A stretch of 14,027 nucleotides of DNA from an uncultured Asticcacaulis sp. (GTDB lineage Bacteria > Pseudomonadota > Alphaproteobacteria > Caulobacterales > Caulobacteraceae), in contig CAMLPZ010000094.1 in NCBI GenBank assembly GCA_946482045.1, positions 1 through 14,027 of the forward strand, written 5' to 3'. This document shows positions 1,222-10,160 of this stretch, one piece after another. Numbering within the stretch: the first letter of the stretch is position 1; each line of letters starts with the position of its first letter. The translations under genes were made by a program, and so were the position numbers. The notes below the pieces were generated by a model. That model was not told the origin of the DNA. It searched no databases and saw only the letters and a list, made by a program, of their open reading frames with translations.

Positions 1222-2145
1222 TCAGGATGACGTAGCTGACGACTCTTTCTCGCCCAGGCTCTCCGCGAACGCCAGGGTCTCGAAGACGACGCGCGTCAGG
1301 TCGGCAATGACCTTGTCGCGCCCAGCGTCGTCAAGCGTTCCGCCCGTCGTGAAAATCGACAGGAACATCGGTGGCTTGCCCCCCACCGGCCAGATGACCG
1401 CGACGTCGTTGGCGTGCGTTGCGGCTGTACCGGTCTTGTGGCCGACGACATAGCCGGCAGGCACGCCTGCGGGAATGCGGTTCTTGCCGGTCGTCGTCGC
1501 GACCATCCAGTCCTTGAGCAGCGACAGGCTGGCGGGTTTGAGAACGGTACCGGTGAAGACCGTCTTCAGCAACTGCGTCATGGCCGCGGGCGTGGTTGTG
1601 TCCCGCTCATCGCCTTCCGGCACGTCGTTCAATGACGGCTCGTTGCGGTCGAAGCGCGTCGTTGTATCGCCAATCGCCCGCACGAAGGCGGTCAGGCCCG
1701 CCGGGCCGCCGACCAGCGGCAGCAGCAGGTTTGCGGCGGTATTGTCGCTGACCGCCACGGCGGCAGAACACAGGTCGCCGATCGTCATCTTCCCCTTTGC
1801 AACGTGCTGGGTCGTCACGGGCGCGTATTCGAGCAGGTCAACCTTGGTGTAGGACACCTCATGCGCGACTTTCAGCTTGCCCTGGTCCACCGCCTGGAGA
1901 ACGGCGGCGGCCAGTACCCATTTGAACACCGAACACATGGCGAAGCGCTGGTCGGACTGGATGTTGAAATTGCTGTTGGCGTCACCTGTGCCCGAAGCGA
2001 GGCTTACCCCGACACGACCGCCGTGACGCCGGACGATCTCGGCAACCTCCTGGCCGATGCCGACGACGTGGCTGAACTCCTTCGAGCAACCAGCCAGCAG
2101 GCCCGCTCCAGCCACTCCAAGCATCATCCCCCTGCGCGACAGCAT
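1222..2145 (-). CDS. bla: Class A beta-lactamase, predicted Tat/lipoprotein export
   Basis: This is a 307-residue serine beta-lactamase expected to hydrolyse beta-lactam antibiotics outside the cytoplasm. All class A motifs are present: S72-V-F-K75 (SxxK), S133-D134-N135 (SDN loop), E169-P-S-L-N173 in the omega loop (Ambler E166 and N170), and K237-T-G239 (KTG). The N-terminus has a twin-arginine motif (S3-R-R-G-M-M), a short hydrophobic stretch and a lipobox L-A-G-C20. A lipid-anchored protein exported folded through Tat is therefore likely. C71 corresponds to Ambler C69, but no Cys sits at Ambler 238, so the carbapenemase-type disulfide cannot form. The spectrum cannot be read from sequence. 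The ATG lies 3 bases after the TGA of the peptidase gene, and its Shine-Dalgarno GGAG lies inside the end of that gene, so translation is probably coupled. No LysR-type ampR regulator is adjacent. The C-terminus ends in a short Ser-rich tail. Confidence 0.95.
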   Translation of the reverse strand: MLSRRGMMLGVAGAGLLAGCSKEFSHVVGIGQEVAEIVRRHGGRVGVSLASGTGDANSNFNIQSDQRFAMCSVFKWVLAAAVLQAVDQGKLKVAHEVSYTKVDLLEYAPVTTQHVAKGKMTIGDLCSAAVAVSDNTAANLLLPLVGGPAGLTAFVRAIGDTTTRFDRNEPSLNDVPEGDERDTTTPAAMTQLLKTVFTGTVLKPASLSLLKDWMVATTTGKNRIPAGVPAGYVVGHKTGTAATHANDVAVIWPVGGKPPMFLSIFTTGGTLDDAGRDKVIADLTRVVFETLAFAESLGEKESSATSS

Positions 2146-2148
2146 GGC

Positions 2149-4230
2149 TCATTTCTCCGTATGCGTTGTCATCCAGTCGAACACCGTGGCATGCCACTTC
2201 AGAGAGTTCTGTGGCTTAAGCACCCAATGATTCTCATCCGGGAAACGCAGGAACTTCGACTCGATACCCTGGCGCTGCAAGGCGGTAAAGGTTGCGATCC
2301 CCTGTCCCGGCACAACACGATAGTCCTTGTCGGAATGGATGACCAGCATCGGCTTCGACCATTTGTGTGCATAAAGCGCCGGATTAAAAGCGTCCATCTT
2401 GGCCATGTTGCCGTAGGGCATGCCGCCATTCTCGGTTTCAGAGAACCAAAGCTCCTCGGTTTCCTCCGCCATCGTGCGCGTATCGAAAATGCCGTCGTGA
2501 TTGACCAGGCACTTCCACGGTTCCTTCCAGTTGCCGGCGATCCAGTTAATCATGTAGCCGCCATAAGACGCCCCCAGCGCGCAGGCGCGGCCGCCATCGA
2601 GGAACTTGTAGTTCGCCAGGACATGCGCCCAGCCTTTCTGCAGGTCTTCCAGCGGCCGGTCGCCCCAGTGCTGCGAGATCGAGTCGGTAAAGGCCTGACC
2701 GTAACCCGGCGAGCCATGGAAATCGATGAACACCACCGCATAGCCTTCGCCGGCGAAGACGTTCGGGTTCCAGCGATAGGACCATGCGTCGCTGAACGAC
2801 ACTTGCGGACCGCCGTGAACGATGAAGGCAACCGGATAGGTCTTGCCCTCCTCGTAATTGGCCGGCTTCATGACATAGCCGTGGACGGTCTCGTCGTTCC
2901 AGCCCTTGAAACTGAACTGTTCGTACTGGCCGAAGGCGCGGTCCTTCAGCACCGGATTGATGCCGGTCAGGCTGCGCGCCCCCATGTCGATGAACATCGC
3001 CTTCGAATTGGCGAGGTAAAGCTGCGACGGACCGGACAGCCCGCTCTTGAGGTACACCATACCTTGCGGCGTTTCCGCGTAGGCGTCGATGTGGCCGTCC
3101 TTCGATAGAGCCGTGACCTTGCCGGTCTTGACGTCGATGCGGAACAGCTTGTGCGTACCGATGTCGTCGGAACTGACCAGCAGGCTCTTGCCGTCCTTCG
3201 ACCAGGCGATCTCATTCGCGCTATGGTCCCAGTCAGTGGCCAAAGGCGTCACCTTACCGGTCTTGAGGTCGCGCAGGAAGATGTCGAAGCGGTCCGCTTC
3301 GTTCGCCGGACGCTTCATCGCCTTGTAAGCCAGGGTCTTTCCGTCAGGCGACAGGCGCGGCATCGCGTCCCACGCTTCGTTGCCATCGGTCAGGTTGGTC
3401 AGTGCGCCGCCGCTCATGGGAGCTGAATAGACATCGAAATTGGTCGACCATGGCTCGGTCCTGCCGGCTTCGCGCGCCGCGAAATAGATCGTCTTAGCGT
3501 CGGCCGAGATGGTGTATTCGGCCTCATCGCCGAACGGCTTGGACGGCACATCACCGTCATAGCCGTCGGTCAGGGAAACGGGCGCCGCACCATCGAAACC
3601 GACATAGAACAGGTGGTTGCGCGTGCCATCGGCCCATTCGTCCCAGTGGCGGACGAACAGCTTGTCGTAGACGATGCCGCTCGACTTCTGCGCCTTGCGA
3701 TCGGCACTTGTCCTGACCGTACAGTCGATCTCATTGCCCTTGCATTCCGGAAAGACGGCGAGCGAGACGACGACGCCCTTGCCGTCCGGCGACACCAGGT
3801 AAGAGCCGACATCGAGCGGCAGCTTGGTCACTTGCGTCGCTGTGGCGCCGGTCATGTCGGTCATCCACACCTGCATCGACCCGGACCGCGCCGACAGGAA
3901 GTAGATCGTGTTACCGTCAGCGCTGAACTTCGGCGAGGCCGCCCCGCCTTCGGAGGCCGCGAGTTTGATCTCCGGTGTCGCCGGCTTGGACAGGTCCTTC
4001 AGCCAGATCGCGCTGACGCCCTTGTTCTTGTCGAGATCGGTGGCGCGGACCTGGAAGACGGCATAGCGGCCGGCGCCATCGACGCTCAAGCCGCTGATAC
4101 GGTCAAGGGACACCAGGTCCTTGTAGGTAAAGGGGGCCTTCGCGGTTTGCGCGCTTGCTGACAGGGTCAGCAGGGACGCCGAGCCGATAAGTGTGGCGGC
4201 AAGGATGGATTTCAGGTTTCGGGAAAGCAT
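2149..4230 (-). CDS. S9 family serine peptidase, dipeptidyl-peptidase 5 (S9C) type
   Basis: The product has 693 residues and is an exported prolyl-oligopeptidase-family enzyme, most like bacterial DPP5, which removes dipeptides from peptide N-termini in the periplasm. A Sec signal peptide with cleavage after ASA (residues 25-27) precedes a beta-propeller-like region (about 35-430) with repeated segments such as SPDGK and SADG. The C-terminal alpha/beta-hydrolase domain (about 440-693) carries HGGPQ at 472-476, the nucleophile elbow G-A-S555-Y-G-G, the acid D636 in SDKDYRV, and H668 in ENHW. The triad is complete. The segments WSYRWNPNVFAGEGYAVV and GSPGYGQAFTD resemble DPP5 closely. The start follows a weak AGG about 9 bases upstream. 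It is the first gene of a tight unit with bla and glsA. One reading of the context is peptide scavenging followed by glutamine deamidation, which is inference. A general acylaminoacyl-peptidase is the alternative name. Confidence 0.92.
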   Translation of the reverse strand: MLSRNLKSILAATLIGSASLLTLSASAQTAKAPFTYKDLVSLDRISGLSVDGAGRYAVFQVRATDLDKNKGVSAIWLKDLSKPATPEIKLAASEGGAASPKFSADGNTIYFLSARSGSMQVWMTDMTGATATQVTKLPLDVGSYLVSPDGKGVVVSLAVFPECKGNEIDCTVRTSADRKAQKSSGIVYDKLFVRHWDEWADGTRNHLFYVGFDGAAPVSLTDGYDGDVPSKPFGDEAEYTISADAKTIYFAAREAGRTEPWSTNFDVYSAPMSGGALTNLTDGNEAWDAMPRLSPDGKTLAYKAMKRPANEADRFDIFLRDLKTGKVTPLATDWDHSANEIAWSKDGKSLLVSSDDIGTHKLFRIDVKTGKVTALSKDGHIDAYAETPQGMVYLKSGLSGPSQLYLANSKAMFIDMGARSLTGINPVLKDRAFGQYEQFSFKGWNDETVHGYVMKPANYEEGKTYPVAFIVHGGPQVSFSDAWSYRWNPNVFAGEGYAVVFIDFHGSPGYGQAFTDSISQHWGDRPLEDLQKGWAHVLANYKFLDGGRACALGASYGGYMINWIAGNWKEPWKCLVNHDGIFDTRTMAEETEELWFSETENGGMPYGNMAKMDAFNPALYAHKWSKPMLVIHSDKDYRVVPGQGIATFTALQRQGIESKFLRFPDENHWVLKPQNSLKWHATVFDWMTTHTEK

Positions 4231-4378: not shown

Positions 4379-4828
4379 CTAAGCCGAGCCTTGTTGGGAA
4401 AGAATGGCTTTTAAATCCGCCATCGCTTCGGCCGTCTGTTTCGGCAGCTTGGCCCTGAACAGCGGCAGGAGCAGTTTGCACAACAAGGAATTGGGCACCA
4501 GCTCAACCCGATGCGTCAGGCGTGTCCCCTCCCCTTGCGGTTCCAGGTGGAAGTCGACGAAGGCCTGCATCATTTTGTCGTAATAGCGGTAGCTCAACTG
4601 CCGGTCGGGCTCATAGGTCGAGATAACGCCATCCATGATGCGGTGCTTGCCGCCTTCGTAATAGGCGTAACGCAGCTTGTCGCCGGCCTTGTTCGGCCCC
4701 TGCCCCAGCTTGGCCACGCCCTCGCACCGTTTCAACCACGTCGGTACGCGCTTGAAATCGTCCAGAAAGGCGAAGACCTCATGTGGCGGCTGAGGTAGAT
4801 CTATGCCGTGTTCGACGACAATGGGCAT
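4379..4828 (-). CDS. SRPBCC (START/polyketide-cyclase-like) family protein
   Basis: This 149-residue cytoplasmic protein probably has the helix-grip fold that forms a hydrophobic ligand pocket. Supporting features are the N-terminal pattern V-V-E-H-G-I-D-L-P-Q-P-P-H-E-V-F-A-F-L-D, typical of SRPBCC proteins (strand, then helix containing the 'P..VF.fl.D' signature), the following P-T-W-L-K segment, alternating strands in the middle (L-S-Y-R-Y-Y-D, A-F-V-D-F-H-L), and a long amphipathic C-terminal helix. The ligand is unknown. No Hsp90-activator or catalytic signature is recognised. The length fits a single-domain family member. It has an AGGAG about 11 bases before its ATG and a plausible promoter of its own, and sits just behind the terminator of the signalling unit. 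It is therefore probably transcribed alone or as the first gene before the peptidase unit. Confidence 0.8.
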   Translation of the reverse strand: MPIVVEHGIDLPQPPHEVFAFLDDFKRVPTWLKRCEGVAKLGQGPNKAGDKLRYAYYEGGKHRIMDGVISTYEPDRQLSYRYYDKMMQAFVDFHLEPQGEGTRLTHRVELVPNSLLCKLLLPLFRAKLPKQTAEAMADLKAILSQQGSA

Positions 4829-4971: not shown

Positions 4972-5424
4972 CTATTCCGCGGCCGAGGGCTCCGGCAGCT
5001 CGACCAGAAAGAAGAAGAACTGTTCGATGGTCGATATGGCGGCGCGAAAGCTGTCGAGATCGACGGGCTTGACGACATAGGCATTGGCGTGCAGGGCGTA
5101 GCTGCGTGCGATGTCCTGCTCGGCCGCCGAGCTCGACAGGATGATGACCGGAATATGCCGCAGGCGCGCATCCGCCTTGACTTGGCCAAGCACGTCACGG
5201 CCGCTCATACGCGGCAGGTTGAGGTCTAGCAGGATCAGATCCGGCAAGGCCTGGGCGTCATCGCGCAGCCTTTCCAGCGCCGCTTCGCCGCTTTCGGCGA
5301 CCGACAGACGGTTCTCGATCTGCGCCGACTGCAACGCCTTGCGCGTCAGCAGCACATCGCCACGATTGTCCTCGACAAGCAGGATTTCCGCCGGGCGGTT
5401 TCTATGCATCAACAGACTGGACAT
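4972..5424 (-). CDS. Single-domain response regulator, Rcp1-like (CheY-like receiver)
   Basis: The 150-residue protein is only a receiver domain with a short C-terminal tail and has no DNA-binding or enzymatic output. The acidic pocket is E18-D19, the phospho-acceptor is D67 in LLDLNLP, the switch residue lies in the SSS at 97-99, and K119 is in VVKPV. These residues make phosphorylation very likely. The EDNRGD, LDLNLP and C-terminal IEQ...LP features fit the Rcp1 family, which partners phytochrome-type kinases. Its ATG lies 9 bases after the stop of the kinase gene. Its ribosome-binding site GAGG overlaps that stop, so the two are co-translated and the kinase is the likely phosphodonor. A run of four Phe (136-139) near the C-terminus may help dimerisation, as the C-terminal region does in Rcp1-type proteins (inference). 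A paralogue lies at 7244-7714. Confidence 0.93.
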   Translation of the reverse strand: MSSLLMHRNRPAEILLVEDNRGDVLLTRKALQSAQIENRLSVAESGEAALERLRDDAQALPDLILLDLNLPRMSGRDVLGQVKADARLRHIPVIILSSSAAEQDIARSYALHANAYVVKPVDLDSFRAAISTIEQFFFFLVELPEPSAAE

Positions 5425-5433
5425 GTTACCTCT

Positions 5434-6993
5434 CTAACTGACTGTCTGTGCCGATCCGGCTGGCCGCGGAAGCGTAATGTGGAACTCGCTGCCGCCGGAT
5501 TTGACGGAAGTGGCCCAGATTCGGCCACCGTGGCTTTCGACGATCTTCTTGCAAACCGCCAGACCCAAACCGGTTCCCTTGATGGCCTCCCAGGTATGCA
5601 GACGCCGGAAGGGCTCGAAGACCTGCTCGATAAAGGCCGGCTCGATGCCTAAGCCATTATCACGGACGATGAAGTGCCACCGTCCCGGCTCGGCCACCAC
5701 GCCGATATGGATGACCGGCGTATTGCCCGGCGCCTGGTACTTGATGGCGTTGCTGATCAGGTTCTGCAAAAGACGCATGATCTGGACCGGATTGCCCTGG
5801 ATGAAAGGCAGTGGATCGGAGGTGACGATCGCCCCCGTATCGGCGATGAGCTGGCCGAGATTGGTTTTGACGTGGTCCAGCTCCACGGCCATGTCGACAT
5901 CGACGATGGTCGCCCCTTCGCGGCCCAGGCGGGCATATTCAAGCAGGTCGTGGACCATTTCGCGCATGCGCAGGGCACTGTCACCGACGATCTTGAGATA
6001 CTCCTTACCATCCTCATCCAGCGCATCCTCATAATCCTTGGCGATGATCTGGCTGAAGTTCAGCACCATGCGCAGGGGCTCCTGCATGTCGTGCGAAGCG
6101 ACATAGGCGAAGCGTTCCAGTTCGGTGTTGGATTCCGTCAGCCGCGCCAGCAGGCGTTCGCGCGCCTCTTCGGCCTGCTTGGCCTTGGTGATGTCGCGCA
6201 CAATGCCGGAGAAGTGACGCACGCCATCGATGGTAAAGGCGCTGACCGATAGGTCGAGCGGAAACACGGAACCGTCCTTGCGCTTGCCCTGGACCTCACG
6301 GCCGGCCGTGCCGATAATCCGGGCTTCGCCGGTTCCCATGTAGTGCGCCAGATAGCCGTCGTGACCGCTGTGATATGGCTCAGGCATCAGCATCTTGACG
6401 TTCTGCCCCATGACCTCGGATGCCGTATAGCCAAAGATGGTTTCGCACGCCCGGTTATAGCTTTCGACCTGCCCCCGCTCGTTGATGGTGATGATGCCGT
6501 CCAGCACGTTGTCGACGATCGCCTGCAGGCGCACGCGGCCGCGTTCCTGGCTTTCGGCATAAAGCTTTTCCAGCTTGGCATTGGCGGCCTGAAGCTGCGC
6601 ATTGGTTTCGCGCAACTGATCCGGCCCTGGGATCGCCAGCATCTTGGGCAGCAGGCGGATCGTCATGGCCAGGGTCCCCAGAGATGCCAGCGCCGTCAGC
6701 CCCTTGATCACGCCTTCGGTGTAGTAGGATGGATGCCATAGCGTCCAGATGCTGACGACGTGCGTCGTCCCGCACAGCAGGATGAAGGCGCCGAACAGCA
6801 GGAAAACCAGCGGGAAGGGCAGGTCCGGCCGCTTGCGCACGAAATAGAGCAGAGCAATCGGAATGCCGAAATAGGCCAGGGCGATCAGCGAGTCGGAAAT
6901 GACGTGCAGCAACAGTATGTCCGGCTGCCACAGGAAACAGTAGCCATGCGGCATGAAGCTGGTGTGTTGCGCCATGTCGTGAGCGGCCGTCAT
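5434..6993 (-). CDS. Membrane histidine kinase with ETR1-like ethylene-binding domain and FixL-like haem PAS
   Basis: The 519-residue sensor kinase is predicted to autophosphorylate and pass phosphate to the adjoining receiver proteins. Residues 1-120 form three membrane helices (about 24-52, 60-82, 93-118) matching the ETR1 ethylene-binding domain: D34, Y41, I44, P45, I71, C74 and H78 correspond to ETR1 D25, Y32, I35, P36, I62, C65 and H69, all at offset +9. C74 and H78 would hold Cu(I). A coiled coil follows (about 125-150), then a PAS domain (about 152-270) with NVKMLMPEPY and H211 in HDGY, which aligns with the haem-ligating H200 of Bradyrhizobium FixL. HisKA has H301 in ASHDMQEPLR, the phytochrome-type form. 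The ATPase domain shows N415 (N box), D445-N-G-L-G (G1), FEPF and GTGLGLA (473-479). GAGGT about 7 bases before the ATG sets the start. Ligand and output are inference; the domain order is clear. Confidence 0.93.
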   Translation of the reverse strand: MTAAHDMAQHTSFMPHGYCFLWQPDILLLHVISDSLIALAYFGIPIALLYFVRKRPDLPFPLVFLLFGAFILLCGTTHVVSIWTLWHPSYYTEGVIKGLTALASLGTLAMTIRLLPKMLAIPGPDQLRETNAQLQAANAKLEKLYAESQERGRVRLQAIVDNVLDGIITINERGQVESYNRACETIFGYTASEVMGQNVKMLMPEPYHSGHDGYLAHYMGTGEARIIGTAGREVQGKRKDGSVFPLDLSVSAFTIDGVRHFSGIVRDITKAKQAEEARERLLARLTESNTELERFAYVASHDMQEPLRMVLNFSQIIAKDYEDALDEDGKEYLKIVGDSALRMREMVHDLLEYARLGREGATIVDVDMAVELDHVKTNLGQLIADTGAIVTSDPLPFIQGNPVQIMRLLQNLISNAIKYQAPGNTPVIHIGVVAEPGRWHFIVRDNGLGIEPAFIEQVFEPFRRLHTWEAIKGTGLGLAVCKKIVESHGGRIWATSVKSGGSEFHITLPRPAGSAQTVS

Positions 6994-6997
6994 TGCT

Positions 6998-7123
6998 CTA
7001 CCTCTGGGTCAGACGAGTCGGCATGCGTACCATGAAACGGGACTTGCCACTATCACCGCCCGCCCGGCAACCGCAGGTACCAGACGTCGGGTTTTGCGTC
7101 ACGGCGTGGAAGATGAATTTCAT
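6998..7123 (-). CDS. Possible small ORF (41 codons) leading the sensor kinase operon
   Basis: An ATG at 7121-7123 opens a 41-codon frame that stops with TAG at 6998-7000, 4 bases before the kinase ATG. The kinase ribosome-binding site lies over this stop, as in coupled gene pairs. A GGAAG ribosome-binding site sits 5 bases before the small ORF's ATG. The product starts MKFIFHAV, has a T-C-G-C-R motif in the middle and is basic at the end; no family is recognised. By hand count about 28 of 40 third positions are G or C, compatible with coding but not proof. It could be a real small protein, a translated leader controlling kinase expression, or chance. The GGAAG is part of a hairpin with codons 4-6 (see the dyad at 7108-7133). 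Confidence 0.42.
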   Translation of the reverse strand: MKFIFHAVTQNPTSGTCGCRAGGDSGKSRFMVRMPTRLTQR

Positions 7124-7133
7124 GTGATCTTCC
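7108..7133 (-). promoter_or_regulatory. Dyad that would fold over the ribosome-binding site of the small ORF
   Basis: GGAAGAT (7108-7114) and ATCTTCC (7127-7133) are perfect 7-base inverted arms with a 12-base spacer. In the - strand transcript the 5' arm contains the GGAAG ribosome-binding site of the small ORF and the 3' arm is its codons 4-6, with the AUG in the loop. A second overlapping palindrome, ATGAA-T-TTCAT (7113-7123), shares the region. It could act as an RNA switch or thermosensor, or as an operator in DNA for the divergent genes. No clear promoter was found in 7124-7243. Confidence 0.4.
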
Positions 7134-7243
7134 CGTGTGTTCTTTGGTGATTAAGGACTTGCGGGCCAAGATAAAATCGGGAAACAATACTGCGCCGGAA
7201 CGAAACCGTCCTTACGGCGGCATTCCTGGAATACGGAGTAGTA

Positions 7244-7714
7244 ATGACGAAGGTCATCGAGAGATCGCGCGCGGCTCAGGTACTTTTGATCGAGGACAAC
7301 CGTGGCGACGCCGTCCTGACCCGCCGGGCCTTCAAGCGCGCGACCCTGGCTAACGAAATCACGATCGCAGAAACCGGTGAAGCCGGGCTGAACATTCTGC
7401 GCCGCCAGGGCGAGCATGAAGGTGCCCCACGGCCAGATATCATCCTGCTCGACCTGAACCTGCCGCATATGCACGGCCAGGACTTCCTGAAGGAAGTGAA
7501 GTCGGATCCGGACCTGCGCCAGATTCCGGTCATCATCCTGTCCAGTTCCAGCGCCGATTCGGATGTCGAGAACTGCTACGACCGCCACGCCAACGGCTAC
7601 ATTACCAAGCCGGTGACCAACGATACCTATGACGAGATCGTCAACAAGATCGAGCAGTACTGGTTCGGGCTGATGCAACTGCCGCCGGACGGCAAGCCAG
7701 CCACGCTAAACTGA
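7244..7714 (+). CDS. Second single-domain response regulator, Rcp1-like
   Basis: This 156-residue receiver-only protein has E17-D18, phospho-acceptor D70 in LLDLNLP, the SSSS run at 100-103, and K122 in TKPV. It is clearly a paralogue of the regulator at 4972-5424, sharing EDNRGD, LLDLNLP, IPVIILSSS, KPV and an IEQ...LP end, but differs in the helices that usually choose partners. GGAG 7 bases before the ATG supports the start. It is transcribed away from the kinase from a 120-base region (7124-7243) not taken up by the small ORF. It ends 9 bases from the convergent alkB stop. It may be a second acceptor for the same kinase, a phosphate sink, or a partner of a kinase elsewhere. Output proteins are not visible here. 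Confidence 0.92.
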   Translation: MTKVIERSRAAQVLLIEDNRGDAVLTRRAFKRATLANEITIAETGEAGLNILRRQGEHEGAPRPDIILLDLNLPHMHGQDFLKEVKSDPDLRQIPVIILSSSSADSDVENCYDRHANGYITKPVTNDTYDEIVNKIEQYWFGLMQLPPDGKPATLN

Positions 7715-7727
7715 GATGTGGTCTCAG
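7711..7727. terminator. Small inverted repeat between convergent genes, possible two-way terminator
   Basis: CTGAGA (7711-7716), TGTGG and TCTCAG (7722-7727) make a perfect 6-base stem with a 5-base loop. Both stop codons lie within the arms: TGA on + at 7712-7714 for the response regulator, and TGA on - at 7724-7726 for alkB. No T-run follows on either side, so termination by this hairpin alone would be weak. It is the only candidate in the 9-base gap. Confidence 0.3.
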
Positions 7728-8359
7728 CGGGCCTTGCGGATTGTCAGGTTAAGGCGCCGGCGGCCAAGCTCAGGGTGCAAACCGTCCTTCAGGGGCGCGA
7801 TGCCGTGATAGGCCATCCGCGCCGGACCACCCCACACCACGACATCGCCGTGATTGAGCGCGATCCGCGCCTGCGGGTCGCTGCGTTTAAGGCCGCCGAA
7901 CAGAAAGGTTGCTGAAAGCCCCAGCGACACCGAGACGATCGGCGCGTTGCGGTCGACCTCGTCACGGTCCTGATGCAATCCCATGCGCGCGCCGGGTTCA
8001 TAACGGTTGATCAGGCAGGCGTCGGGCTGGAAGCCTTCAAACCCGGCGGCAGTGGCGGCGCGCACGGCCAGGGCGTGAAGCAACGCCGGCATCTCAGGCC
8101 ACGGCTGCCCCGTCAACGGATCGGCAGGCGAATAGCGATATCCCTTGAGATCGGTCACCCAGCCGGCGGCGCCGCAATTGGTCATGGCGACCGACATGGT
8201 GCCCCCGCCGGGCACCTGCATGACGCGAAACGGCGCGGCCTTGCTGAGTCGTTCGACCTCGGACAAAATCGCGCCCGACTCCGCCAGGGCAAAACCGCGT
8301 AGGATCGTCACGCCCTCGGGCGATGACTCTGCGAACAGGGTCAGTTGGTCAGGCGGCAT
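7724..8359 (-). CDS. alkB: AlkB, alpha-ketoglutarate-dependent DNA-repair dioxygenase
   Basis: AlkB uses Fe(II), O2 and 2-oxoglutarate to remove alkyl groups oxidatively from 1-methyladenine and 3-methylcytosine in DNA and RNA. With the chosen start the protein has 211 residues, against 216 in E. coli. It shares long blocks with E. coli AlkB, including GGTMSVAMTNCG-like sequence at 52-63, QPDACLINRY, IVSVSLGL, FGGLKR and HGDVVVWGG. Iron ligands are H129, D131 and H185; R202 and R208 bind 2-oxoglutarate (E. coli R204, R210). The frame extends upstream to 8488, but those 43 residues look unlike AlkB and lie inside the previous gene. The ATG at 8357-8359 gives MPPDQLTLF, close to the E. coli N-terminus. 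It overlaps the preceding dioxygenase gene by 11 bases and is the last gene of the operon led by ada. Confidence 0.96.
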   Translation of the reverse strand: MPPDQLTLFAESSPEGVTILRGFALAESGAILSEVERLSKAAPFRVMQVPGGGTMSVAMTNCGAAGWVTDLKGYRYSPADPLTGQPWPEMPALLHALAVRAATAAGFEGFQPDACLINRYEPGARMGLHQDRDEVDRNAPIVSVSLGLSATFLFGGLKRSDPQARIALNHGDVVVWGGPARMAYHGIAPLKDGLHPELGRRRLNLTIRKAR

Positions 8360-9041
8360 CGTGGAAGATGATCCCCAAGGCCCGGCGCTTGCCCGACCGG
8401 ATGCGGCTGACGCCGTGGCGCATATTGACGCGGTAATCGCCATGCGATCCGCGGACCGGACGGTAATGGACGGCAAAGATGACGGCATCCCCCTGCTGAA
8501 GCGGTACGACTTCGACGCGCGACTGCATGCGAGGCCTCTGCTCAGTCAGGACGAACTGGCCACCGGTGAAATCCTCCTCCGGCTGCGACAACAGGACCGC
8601 CACCTGCAGCGGGAAGACGAGATCGCCATAAAGGTCCTGATGAAGGCAGTTGTAGTCACCCGGCCCGTAGTTGAGCATCAGAGGCGTCGGCCGCAGTTGG
8701 CCGGCGGCATGGCATTGCTCAAGATACGCGCCGTGGTCAGCCGGGTAACGGATATCAATCCCCATCCGCGCGTTCCACCGTCCGGCGATCGCGGCTAGCG
8801 GCGGGTAAAGGCCTGCGCGCAAGCTCGCCACCAGGGGCGGCAAAGGGTATGCGAAGTACTTGTAATCGCCGCTGCCAAAGCCATGCCGCGCCATATGGAT
8901 ATGGCTGCGATACGCGCCCGTGACATAGAGGGTATTCAGCTCGTGGCACTGGTCCGGATCGATCAGGCCGGGCAGGACGGCGCAGCCATGCGCGTTCAAC
9001 TCCGCTTCCACCGCCAGCCAGTCGCAGTCCTCAGGCGTCAT
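8349..9041 (-). CDS. 2OG-Fe(II) dioxygenase, not AlkB, in the ada operon
   Basis: The product has 230 residues from the chosen start. It shows the double-stranded beta-helix iron motif H134-Q-D136 followed by L-Y-G-D-L-V-F-P-L-Q-V-A-V-L-L-S, a distal H209 in MRHGVS, and a basic patch with R219/R220 that probably binds 2-oxoglutarate, ending ALGIIFHDA. It lacks the AlkB signatures and resembles a bacterial family of uncharacterised 2OG-Fe(II) oxygenases. The substrate is unknown; its position makes a damaged nucleobase or a repair-related protein plausible (inference). The start chosen is the ATG at 9039-9041, which overlaps the ada stop as ATGA. The frame continues 31 residues further upstream, but that part lies inside ada. 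The stop overlaps alkB by 11 bases, so translational coupling along ada, this gene and alkB is likely. Confidence 0.87.
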   Translation of the reverse strand: MTPEDCDWLAVEAELNAHGCAVLPGLIDPDQCHELNTLYVTGAYRSHIHMARHGFGSGDYKYFAYPLPPLVASLRAGLYPPLAAIAGRWNARMGIDIRYPADHGAYLEQCHAAGQLRPTPLMLNYGPGDYNCLHQDLYGDLVFPLQVAVLLSQPEEDFTGGQFVLTEQRPRMQSRVEVVPLQQGDAVIFAVHYRPVRGSHGDYRVNMRHGVSRIRSGKRRALGIIFHDAA

Positions 9042-10108
9042 CGACCGGCCTCGCGCTGCAAAAGGACGCGCTTGCGCTCGGCGCCCCAGCGATAGCCGCT
9101 TATCGCGCCATCGGTCCGGACGATGCGGTGACATGGCACCAGCAATGCCAGCGTGTTGGCCGCGCAGGCGCCGGCGACGGCGCGCGCCGCCTTAGGATCG
9201 CCGATACGCTCGGCCAGTTCGGCATAGCTCAGCGTCTGACCCGCCGGGATTCGCCGCAGCGCCGCCCACACCTTCTGCTGGAAGGCCGTACCGCGGATAT
9301 CCAGCGGCAGGTCAAGACCCTTCTCTGGGCCCTTTTTCGGATGGTCGACAAGGCCGACCACCTCGGCCACCCGGCGCTCGAACGCTTCGTCGCCGCCGAT
9401 CAGCTGCGCCTTCGGAAAGCGATCCTGTAGCTCGCGCACCAGCGTATCAGGCTCGTCGCCCAGCGCCACCGAACAGATGCCCTTGTCGCTTTCCGCAACC
9501 AGCATGGCGCCAAGGCTGGTCGCTGCGACGGCGAAGCGCACCTCGGTGCCATCTCCGCCATTCTTGAACCGGGTCGGCGTCATGCCAAGGATAGCATTGG
9601 ACGCTTCGTAGAACCGGCCATTCGAGTTGAAACCGGCGTCGTAAAGCGCATCGGTCACCCGCCCTTCGCCCGAAAGCGCCTCCCGCACTCGACGGGCACG
9701 ATTCGCCTTCGCATAGGCCTTGGGCGTCAGGCCGGTCGCAGCCTTGAAGACACGGTGGAAGTGAAACGGGCTGAGCCCCGCCTGCCCCGCCAGTTGTTCC
9801 AGCGTCGGTTCGCTTTCCGCCGTTTCGATTTGGCGGCAAGCCGCGGCGATCATCCCGGCCCGGGCGCTGCCAAGCGGCTGTTCCGGTTTGCAGCGTAGGC
9901 AGGGACGGAAGCCTGCGGCACGCGCATCCTCCGGCCCGGTATAGAAGCGTATATTTTCCGGCTTCGGCGTGCGCGCGCCGCACGATGGGCGACAGAACAC
10001 CCCCGTGGTGACGACGGCATAGACAAACTGTCCATCCGCGTGCGCATCGCGGTCGCGGATGGTCTGCATGCGCGTGTCTATGGGGATCGCGGTCATAATC
10101 TCTAACAT
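9038..10108 (-). CDS. ada: Ada, bifunctional methylated-DNA methyltransferase and transcription activator
   Basis: Ada takes methyl groups from DNA phosphotriesters (N-terminal domain) and from O6-methylguanine (C-terminal domain), and once methylated activates its own operon. The protein has 356 residues. Its N-terminal zinc site is C39, C43, C70 and C73 (E. coli C38, C42, C69, C72), with C39 the phosphotriester acceptor. An AraC-type helix-turn-helix region follows (about 85-180), including LSPFHFHRVFKAATGLTPKAY. The C-terminal MGMT domain carries V-P-C326-H-R, the O6-methylguanine acceptor (E. coli C321). The start is the ATG at 10106-10108, because AAGGAG lies 8 bases before it (10117-10122). 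Two earlier in-frame ATGs, at 10147 and 10132, lack such a site and add residues not seen in Ada. Its last bases overlap the next dioxygenase gene by 4. Autoregulation is expected, but no convincing E. coli-type Ada box was found. Confidence 0.95.
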   Translation of the reverse strand: MLEIMTAIPIDTRMQTIRDRDAHADGQFVYAVVTTGVFCRPSCGARTPKPENIRFYTGPEDARAAGFRPCLRCKPEQPLGSARAGMIAAACRQIETAESEPTLEQLAGQAGLSPFHFHRVFKAATGLTPKAYAKANRARRVREALSGEGRVTDALYDAGFNSNGRFYEASNAILGMTPTRFKNGGDGTEVRFAVAATSLGAMLVAESDKGICSVALGDEPDTLVRELQDRFPKAQLIGGDEAFERRVAEVVGLVDHPKKGPEKGLDLPLDIRGTAFQQKVWAALRRIPAGQTLSYAELAERIGDPKAARAVAGACAANTLALLVPCHRIVRTDGAISGYRWGAERKRVLLQREAGR

Positions 10109-10132
10109 AGGATATTCTCCTTCCTCTGACAT

Positions 10133-10160
10133 CCCTCGATGGATCACATCCTACTGAGGG
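10133..10160 (-). promoter_or_regulatory. Nested imperfect dyad in the ada leader
   Basis: CCCTC (10133-10137) pairs with GAGGG (10156-10160), and inside it GGAT (10141-10144) pairs with ATCC (10148-10151) around a 3-base loop. The structure lies just upstream of the ada ribosome-binding site. It could be an operator for Ada or an RNA stem in the leader. The stems are short and the signal is modest. Confidence 0.28.

Follow-up and report, generated by a model that had tools for sequence, protein, structure and literature searches.

The window analysed here, a whole stretch of 14,027 nucleotides from an uncultured Asticcacaulis species, encodes a sensor histidine kinase that is very probably an Etr1-type ethylene receptor, which would signal through its kinase to one or both of two single-domain response regulators, RR1 and RR2. 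The N-terminal part of the protein matches the ETR1_N profile (PF25487) over residues 26–121 with 131.9 bits (1e-38; curated cut-off 27), far beyond chance. ETR1_N is also the sole Pfam family reported for residues 1–125, where no other three-helix family scores better. The features on which the argument depends are the following.

5434..6993, minus strand: Etr1-type sensor histidine kinase, 519 aa (open reading frame; Pfam ETR1_N, PAS, HisKA and HATPase_c)
6631..6918, minus strand: putative ethylene-binding domain, residues 26–121 (ETR1_N, 131.9 bits)
6190..6531, minus strand: PAS domain, residues 155–268, FixL-like (Pfam PAS and solved-structure matches)
5461..6120, minus strand: kinase core, HisKA 292–357 (H301) and HATPase_c 400–511 (Pfam)
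4972..5424, minus strand: RR1, single-domain response regulator (Response_reg, 72.9 bits)
7244..7714, plus strand: RR2, single-domain response regulator, divergent (Response_reg, 69.2 bits)
6994..7243, no strand: divergent intergenic region of 250 bp from the kinase to RR2 (coordinates)

The ligand site and the kinase

A preliminary description of this DNA had placed a complete ETR1-type copper/ethylene site of a bacterial sensor kinase at 6640–6930. The span does belong to the kinase, being the minus-strand codons of approximately residues 22–118 in the reading frame 5434–6993, whose start codon is the ATG at 6993. The seven ligand-site residues of ETR1 that were listed, here D34, Y41, I44, P45, I71, C74 and H78, can be read directly from the window, as can the block L-L-C-G-T-T-H with its Cys and His. 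The constant offset of +9 to ETR1 is correct for helices 1 and 2 and fails for the helix-3 lysine, K97, which corresponds to K91 of AtETR1 (+6). Of the ETR1 numbers, D25, C65, H69 and K91 were equated through AzoEtr1 and the accessible part of PMC11819568, while the other four are those of the preliminary description.

All seven residues are invariant, and K97 is nearly so, in an alignment of 54 rows (the window protein and 53 selected homologues), in which the kinase motifs are also intact, with H301 and N411 invariant. The eight positions read D-Y-I-P-I-C-H-K in 118 of 120 database matches, these being the best 120 of 2332 and a sample biased to close relatives; in a wider set of 259 ethylene-domain rows, some of them from duplicate loci, 214 keep all seven residues. 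The profile score, the intact site and the intact kinase motifs thus give good support to the claim of an ETR1-type domain on a complete histidine kinase.

The domain order is ethylene domain, coiled coil, PAS, HisKA and HATPase_c. An AlphaFold2 model built from 54 input sequences (mean pLDDT 81.4, pTM 0.47) has long N-terminal helices at residues 24–54, 61–86 and 90–119, which provide the three helices of the ethylene domain as predicted, and a further helix at 124–161 that runs into the PAS domain; the transmembrane placement of the three helices is likewise a prediction. By sequence, residues 1–121 have no match to solved structures at E ≤ 10. Comparison by fold gave 1135 matches, the best 50 of which comprise histidine kinases, phytochromes and PAS proteins of a similar kind; no entry among these 50 stands out for the membrane domain.

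We think that the three-helix domain would insert into the membrane, hold Cu(I) via C74 and H78, and bind ethylene. Binding of the ligand would alter the packing of the helices, and the signal may then reach the PAS domain and the kinase by way of a D34–K97 contact and the coiled coil, changing the autophosphorylation of H301 and the phosphotransfer to RR1 and/or RR2. As for the direction of the response, ethylene would inhibit the kinase, by analogy.

The ligand could also be another small alkene, as plant ethylene receptors bind other olefins too, or simply Cu(I). In AtETR1 the metal is bound by the two conserved residues, Cys and His, according to the accessible part of PMC11819568, and this fits a domain whose natural signal would be copper(I) or a different olefin and not ethylene. 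We consider such a role unlikely, because conservation extends beyond Cys and His to all seven residues, as in ethylene-binding receptors, and because a Pfam scan of ten window proteins reports no copper-export or copper-resistance family.

The top three solved sequence matches of the kinase core are bacteriophytochrome kinase cores, the closest being 8f71, titled HK domain of bacteriophytochrome RpBphP2. Together with RR1 and RR2, which we take to resemble Rcp1, these matches would suit a kinase with light as its main input and the membrane domain as a mere anchor. SynEtr1 (Synechocystis slr1212), in which an ETR1-type domain is likewise joined to a kinase that signals to a response regulator, is reported to be bifunctional for light and ethylene, unlike our reading of the window kinase, which is likened to it by description (PMC11819568). 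Light as the main input is nevertheless very improbable, since Pfam reports no GAF or PHY domain in the kinase and a mere anchor would not retain a complete ligand site.

Relation to known receptors and distribution

The ethylene-receptor reading is helped by comparison with AzoEtr1 of Azospirillum brasilense Sp7, a soil and root-colonising alphaproteobacterium. AzoEtr1 keeps all seven residues, and a fragment comprising its residues 1–130 binds [14C]ethylene (PMC11819568). Its site residues, of which D35, C75, H79 and K98 are named in the accessible part of that paper, are those of the window numbered one later, and its ETR1_N score is practically the same (132.0 bits, against 131.9 for the window). 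Both proteins have the order ethylene domain, PAS, HisKA and HATPase in a similar length (525 and 519 aa), and both have a response regulator gene just downstream. The two differ in that full-length identity is 31–32%, in that the PAS domain of AzoEtr1 lacks the candidate haem histidine discussed below, and in that a 7.5-kb stretch of the AzoEtr1 locus, located on plasmid ABSP7_p1, holds no match to RR1 or RR2 of the window at E 1e-8.

With an ethylene domain on a complete histidine kinase and RR1 starting 9 nt after the kinase stop, the window fits the bacterial Etr1 two-component pattern. It shares with the plant ETR1 family the profile match (PF25487) and the site residues, equated via AzoEtr1, whereas the plant family signals predominantly independently of His kinase activity, according to the accessible part of PMC11819568.

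ETR1_N was found at E ≤ 0.001 in 2332 of 2606 candidate proteins. Among the genomes sampled, which include some of Asticcacaulis, the domain is carried by 28 of 385 in the class, by 58 of 390 in the family and by 29 of 398 in the phylum (over the cut-off in 28 of these), and it is found in none of 14 control genomes; these counts make it a minority trait, yet a widespread one. The novelty first attributed to the domain in free-living alphaproteobacteria was therefore somewhat overstated, given its presence in 28 of the 385 sampled class genomes and the ethylene binding of AzoEtr1. Judged by its sequence, the window kinase extends a proven kind of bacterial ethylene receptor, itself already known, to Asticcacaulis. 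Among the titles listed by a search of the literature on Asticcacaulis and ethylene, which covers few subscription papers, none concerns an ethylene receptor, and no binding, copper or kinase data on an Asticcacaulis protein turned up there.

The PAS domain and the haem question

The 13 top solved matches of the PAS domain are all FixL or DosP/yddU chains, with 61–108 bits, the next one scoring 40.5. H211 aligns with the FixL His at F-alpha and R232 with a FixL Arg, which we take to be the proximal and distal haem residues, so that H211 is a candidate proximal haem histidine and R232 a candidate distal arginine. Although we lean slightly against it, a receptor of two gases is a serious possibility: the Cu(I) domain would read ethylene, a haem-binding FixL-like PAS domain would read O2 (or NO/CO), and the kinase would integrate both, for example by responding to ethylene only at low O2. 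Should the PAS domain hold haem, ethylene and oxygen would be sensed by a single kinase; the levels of both gases presumably vary in waterlogged soil.

Several points are favourable to haem besides the structural matches. H211 and R232 occur together in 58 of 73 proteins with a window-like PAS domain, with the whole FG loop in 39 of these, the 73 being drawn from 220 unique proteins with the ethylene-domain Cys and His. The position of R200 in SmFixL is presumably that of H217 in the window. The accessible part of PMC10765370 states that SmFixL R200H retains haem spectra and CO binding, and that R200 variants autoxidise in air. According to the accessible part of a survey (PMC10468136), whether a PAS domain of the FixL/DosP cluster binds haem depends primarily on the F-alpha histidine; for most members of that cluster haem is itself a prediction, which weakens the argument.

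Other points go against haem. Relative to FixL, one residue is inserted before R232, in a loop modelled in part at low confidence (residues 225–229, pLDDT <50), and H211 lies two residues ahead of the predicted helix 213–221 in the AlphaFold2 model. The window kinase and the FixL/DosP haem proteins share PAS sequence likeness and the position of the candidate proximal His and perhaps that of the candidate distal Arg; they differ in the inserted residue and in the N-terminal domain, and haem is a candidate ligand of the window kinase. Among 128 PAS columns, H211 ranks 18th and R232 31st in conservation. For this reason we do not take the degree to which H211 is conserved to prove haem, and we keep the ethylene receptor as the main reading and haem as its rival. 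The PAS loop is, moreover, deleted in 7 of the 10 Asticcacaulis orthologues examined (L003–L008 and P0031), so haem is not required by the cassette, and the PAS domain of AzoEtr1 has no such histidine. No proposal of a haem-binding ethylene receptor was found among the titles and abstract openings listed from the literature on ethylene-binding domains with FixL or heme and on AzoEtr1 and SynEtr1 with heme, with few subscription papers covered, and the sole mention of heme in the accessible part of the AzoEtr1 paper (PMC11819568) is an unrelated gene name.

The gene cassette and its neighbours

The order RR2, kinase, RR1 is kept in 10 of 11 distinct loci compared (L001–L008, L145, L146 and L148; L147 repeats L002, and L146 and L148 come from genomes within the same family group). 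RR2 is next to the kinase in all 11 and RR1 in 10, none having been found beside the L008 kinase. From this position we infer that RR1 and RR2 are partners of the kinase. The orthologue in A. solisilvae is 95% identical to the window kinase over 519 aa, and ten further window genes are matched at its locus, with 87–96% protein identity and the order kept.

Beyond RR2 there are alkB, a DNA oxygenase-type gene (PF09859) and ada (7724–10147, minus strand), which are convergent with RR2 and begin 9 nt beyond its end. The ada and alkB genes adjoin the cassette in 6 of the 11 loci (L001, L002, L004, L006, L008 and L146). Ethylene oxide alkylates DNA, and a link between these alkylation-repair genes and the ethylene cassette is a speculation.

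On the other side, a small SRPBCC-type protein is encoded at 4379–4828 (minus strand); it is near the cassette in 11 of 11 loci, at a varying distance. A class A beta-lactamase gene (1222–2145, minus strand; NCBIfam bla_class_A, 300.9 bits), which L001, L005, L145 and L146 likewise have close to the cassette, has as neighbours a glutaminase gene (233–1183) and a gene for a Dpp5-like peptidase (2149–4230, under the cut-off of that model).

Loss and probable exchange of the sensor in sibling species

The cassette is retained without the site in two siblings, A. taihuensis (L005) and sp. AC466 (L007). The eight positions read D-A-L-G-S-A-A-R in L005 and D-C-M-A-M-A-A-R in L007, so that Tyr, Pro, Cys and His are replaced, D34 is kept and K97 is changed to Arg. 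The pair of AtETR1 equivalent to D34 and K97 is predicted to be in contact, the lysine serving output, according to the accessible part of PMC11819568. A site of the lost type is also present in P0123–P0129. ETR1_N still recognises the lost domains (59.2 bits in L005 and 56.8 bits in L007), and the A. taihuensis genome has no other match to this profile. Since the cassette persists at these two orthologous loci despite loss of the site, ethylene appears to be dispensable to it.

The lost domain does not look like a decaying one. When the L005 protein, P0121, is compared with P0126 in blocks of 25 columns, the ethylene domain is 76–88% identical, except for 40% in the first block (unequal N-terminus), which is about as similar as the PAS-kinase part (76–100% in whole blocks) and argues against decay. 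The comparison of P0121 with the intact P0031, encoded by L120 at the same place as L145, gives 88–100% in whole blocks from residue ~150 and 32–72% in the six preceding blocks. At the DNA level, L005 and L145 form a single alignment of 10,628 columns with 88% overall identity, most 60-base blocks being at 85–98%. Ten consecutive blocks, at L005 ~5780–6375, fall to 27–63%, bar one of 80%, forming an island of ~600 bp at about 50% that spans the ethylene domain together with the divergent promoter, the counterpart of window 6994..7243 lying inside. It is the only long island, the dips elsewhere, some of them within genes, comprising one or two blocks (48–77%).

The kinase tree and the ethylene-domain tree also disagree. 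The lost label needs four changes on the kinase tree and one on the ethylene-domain tree, the latter having been built by a quick method, with a long branch for L007. The kinase tree was drawn up with 59 rows, from which P0038 (no anchor) and P0047 and P0132 (too short) were dropped, and an AU test on it rejects one lost clade (p 0.0147; lost in 9 of 56 rows). We rejected a single loss of the site followed by descent on the strength of this test and the difference in changes. Taken together, the island profile and the disagreement between kinase and sensor trees mean that the A. taihuensis island is best read as a recombinational sensor swap.

We also considered whether an assembly chimera could mimic the swap and find this improbable, given that L005 belongs to a named strain, that P0123, 99% identical, has a database entry of its own, that the contig with the intact partner is 1.87 Mb long, and that the intact P0018 and P0037 also fall among the lost rows of the kinase tree. 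Against this dismissal, the protein of the intact partner is named as MAG-derived, and the tree leaves many branchings within that clade unresolved.

We tentatively propose, while regarding it as rather doubtful, a modular cassette for two gases (copper/ethylene in the membrane and haem/O2 in the PAS domain), in which the ethylene module and its promoter were swapped by natural recombination for a version lacking the copper ligands, the kinase and both regulators staying in place, with siblings that have ethylene-seeing or ethylene-blind circuits. The swap is supported by the DNA; haem binding and ethylene blindness are presumed. With the same cassette, a replaced site and one ETR1_N match in its genome, A. 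taihuensis offers a natural control, and its comparison with an intact sibling would show what use ethylene is to the bacterium and would separate ligand residues from output residues. In our opinion, the possible haem PAS domain and the natural exchange of the sensor in siblings, neither of which was in the preliminary description, make this kinase interesting beyond the site itself.

Other variants of the site

Loss of the site is not unique to this clade, as ethylene-domain homologues outside it have altered sites too (e.g., L113, L149 and L150). Upstream of helix 1, the kinase has a cysteine, C19 (6937–6939, minus strand), in the motif P-H-G-x-C, which is invariant in the 54-row alignment and is gone along with the copper ligands in P0121 and P0123–P0129. 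An accessory role may be considered for it. Its joint loss with the site is suggestive in the lost clade; we do not claim C19 as a ligand, since L151 and L189 have another residue there and both keep C74 and H78. Finally, two Terriglobia MAGs (L009 and L010) have ethylene-domain kinases with Arg in place of the Cu-ligand His (D-Y-I-P-I-C-R), and Cys and Arg occupy the ligand positions in L190 and L191 as well.
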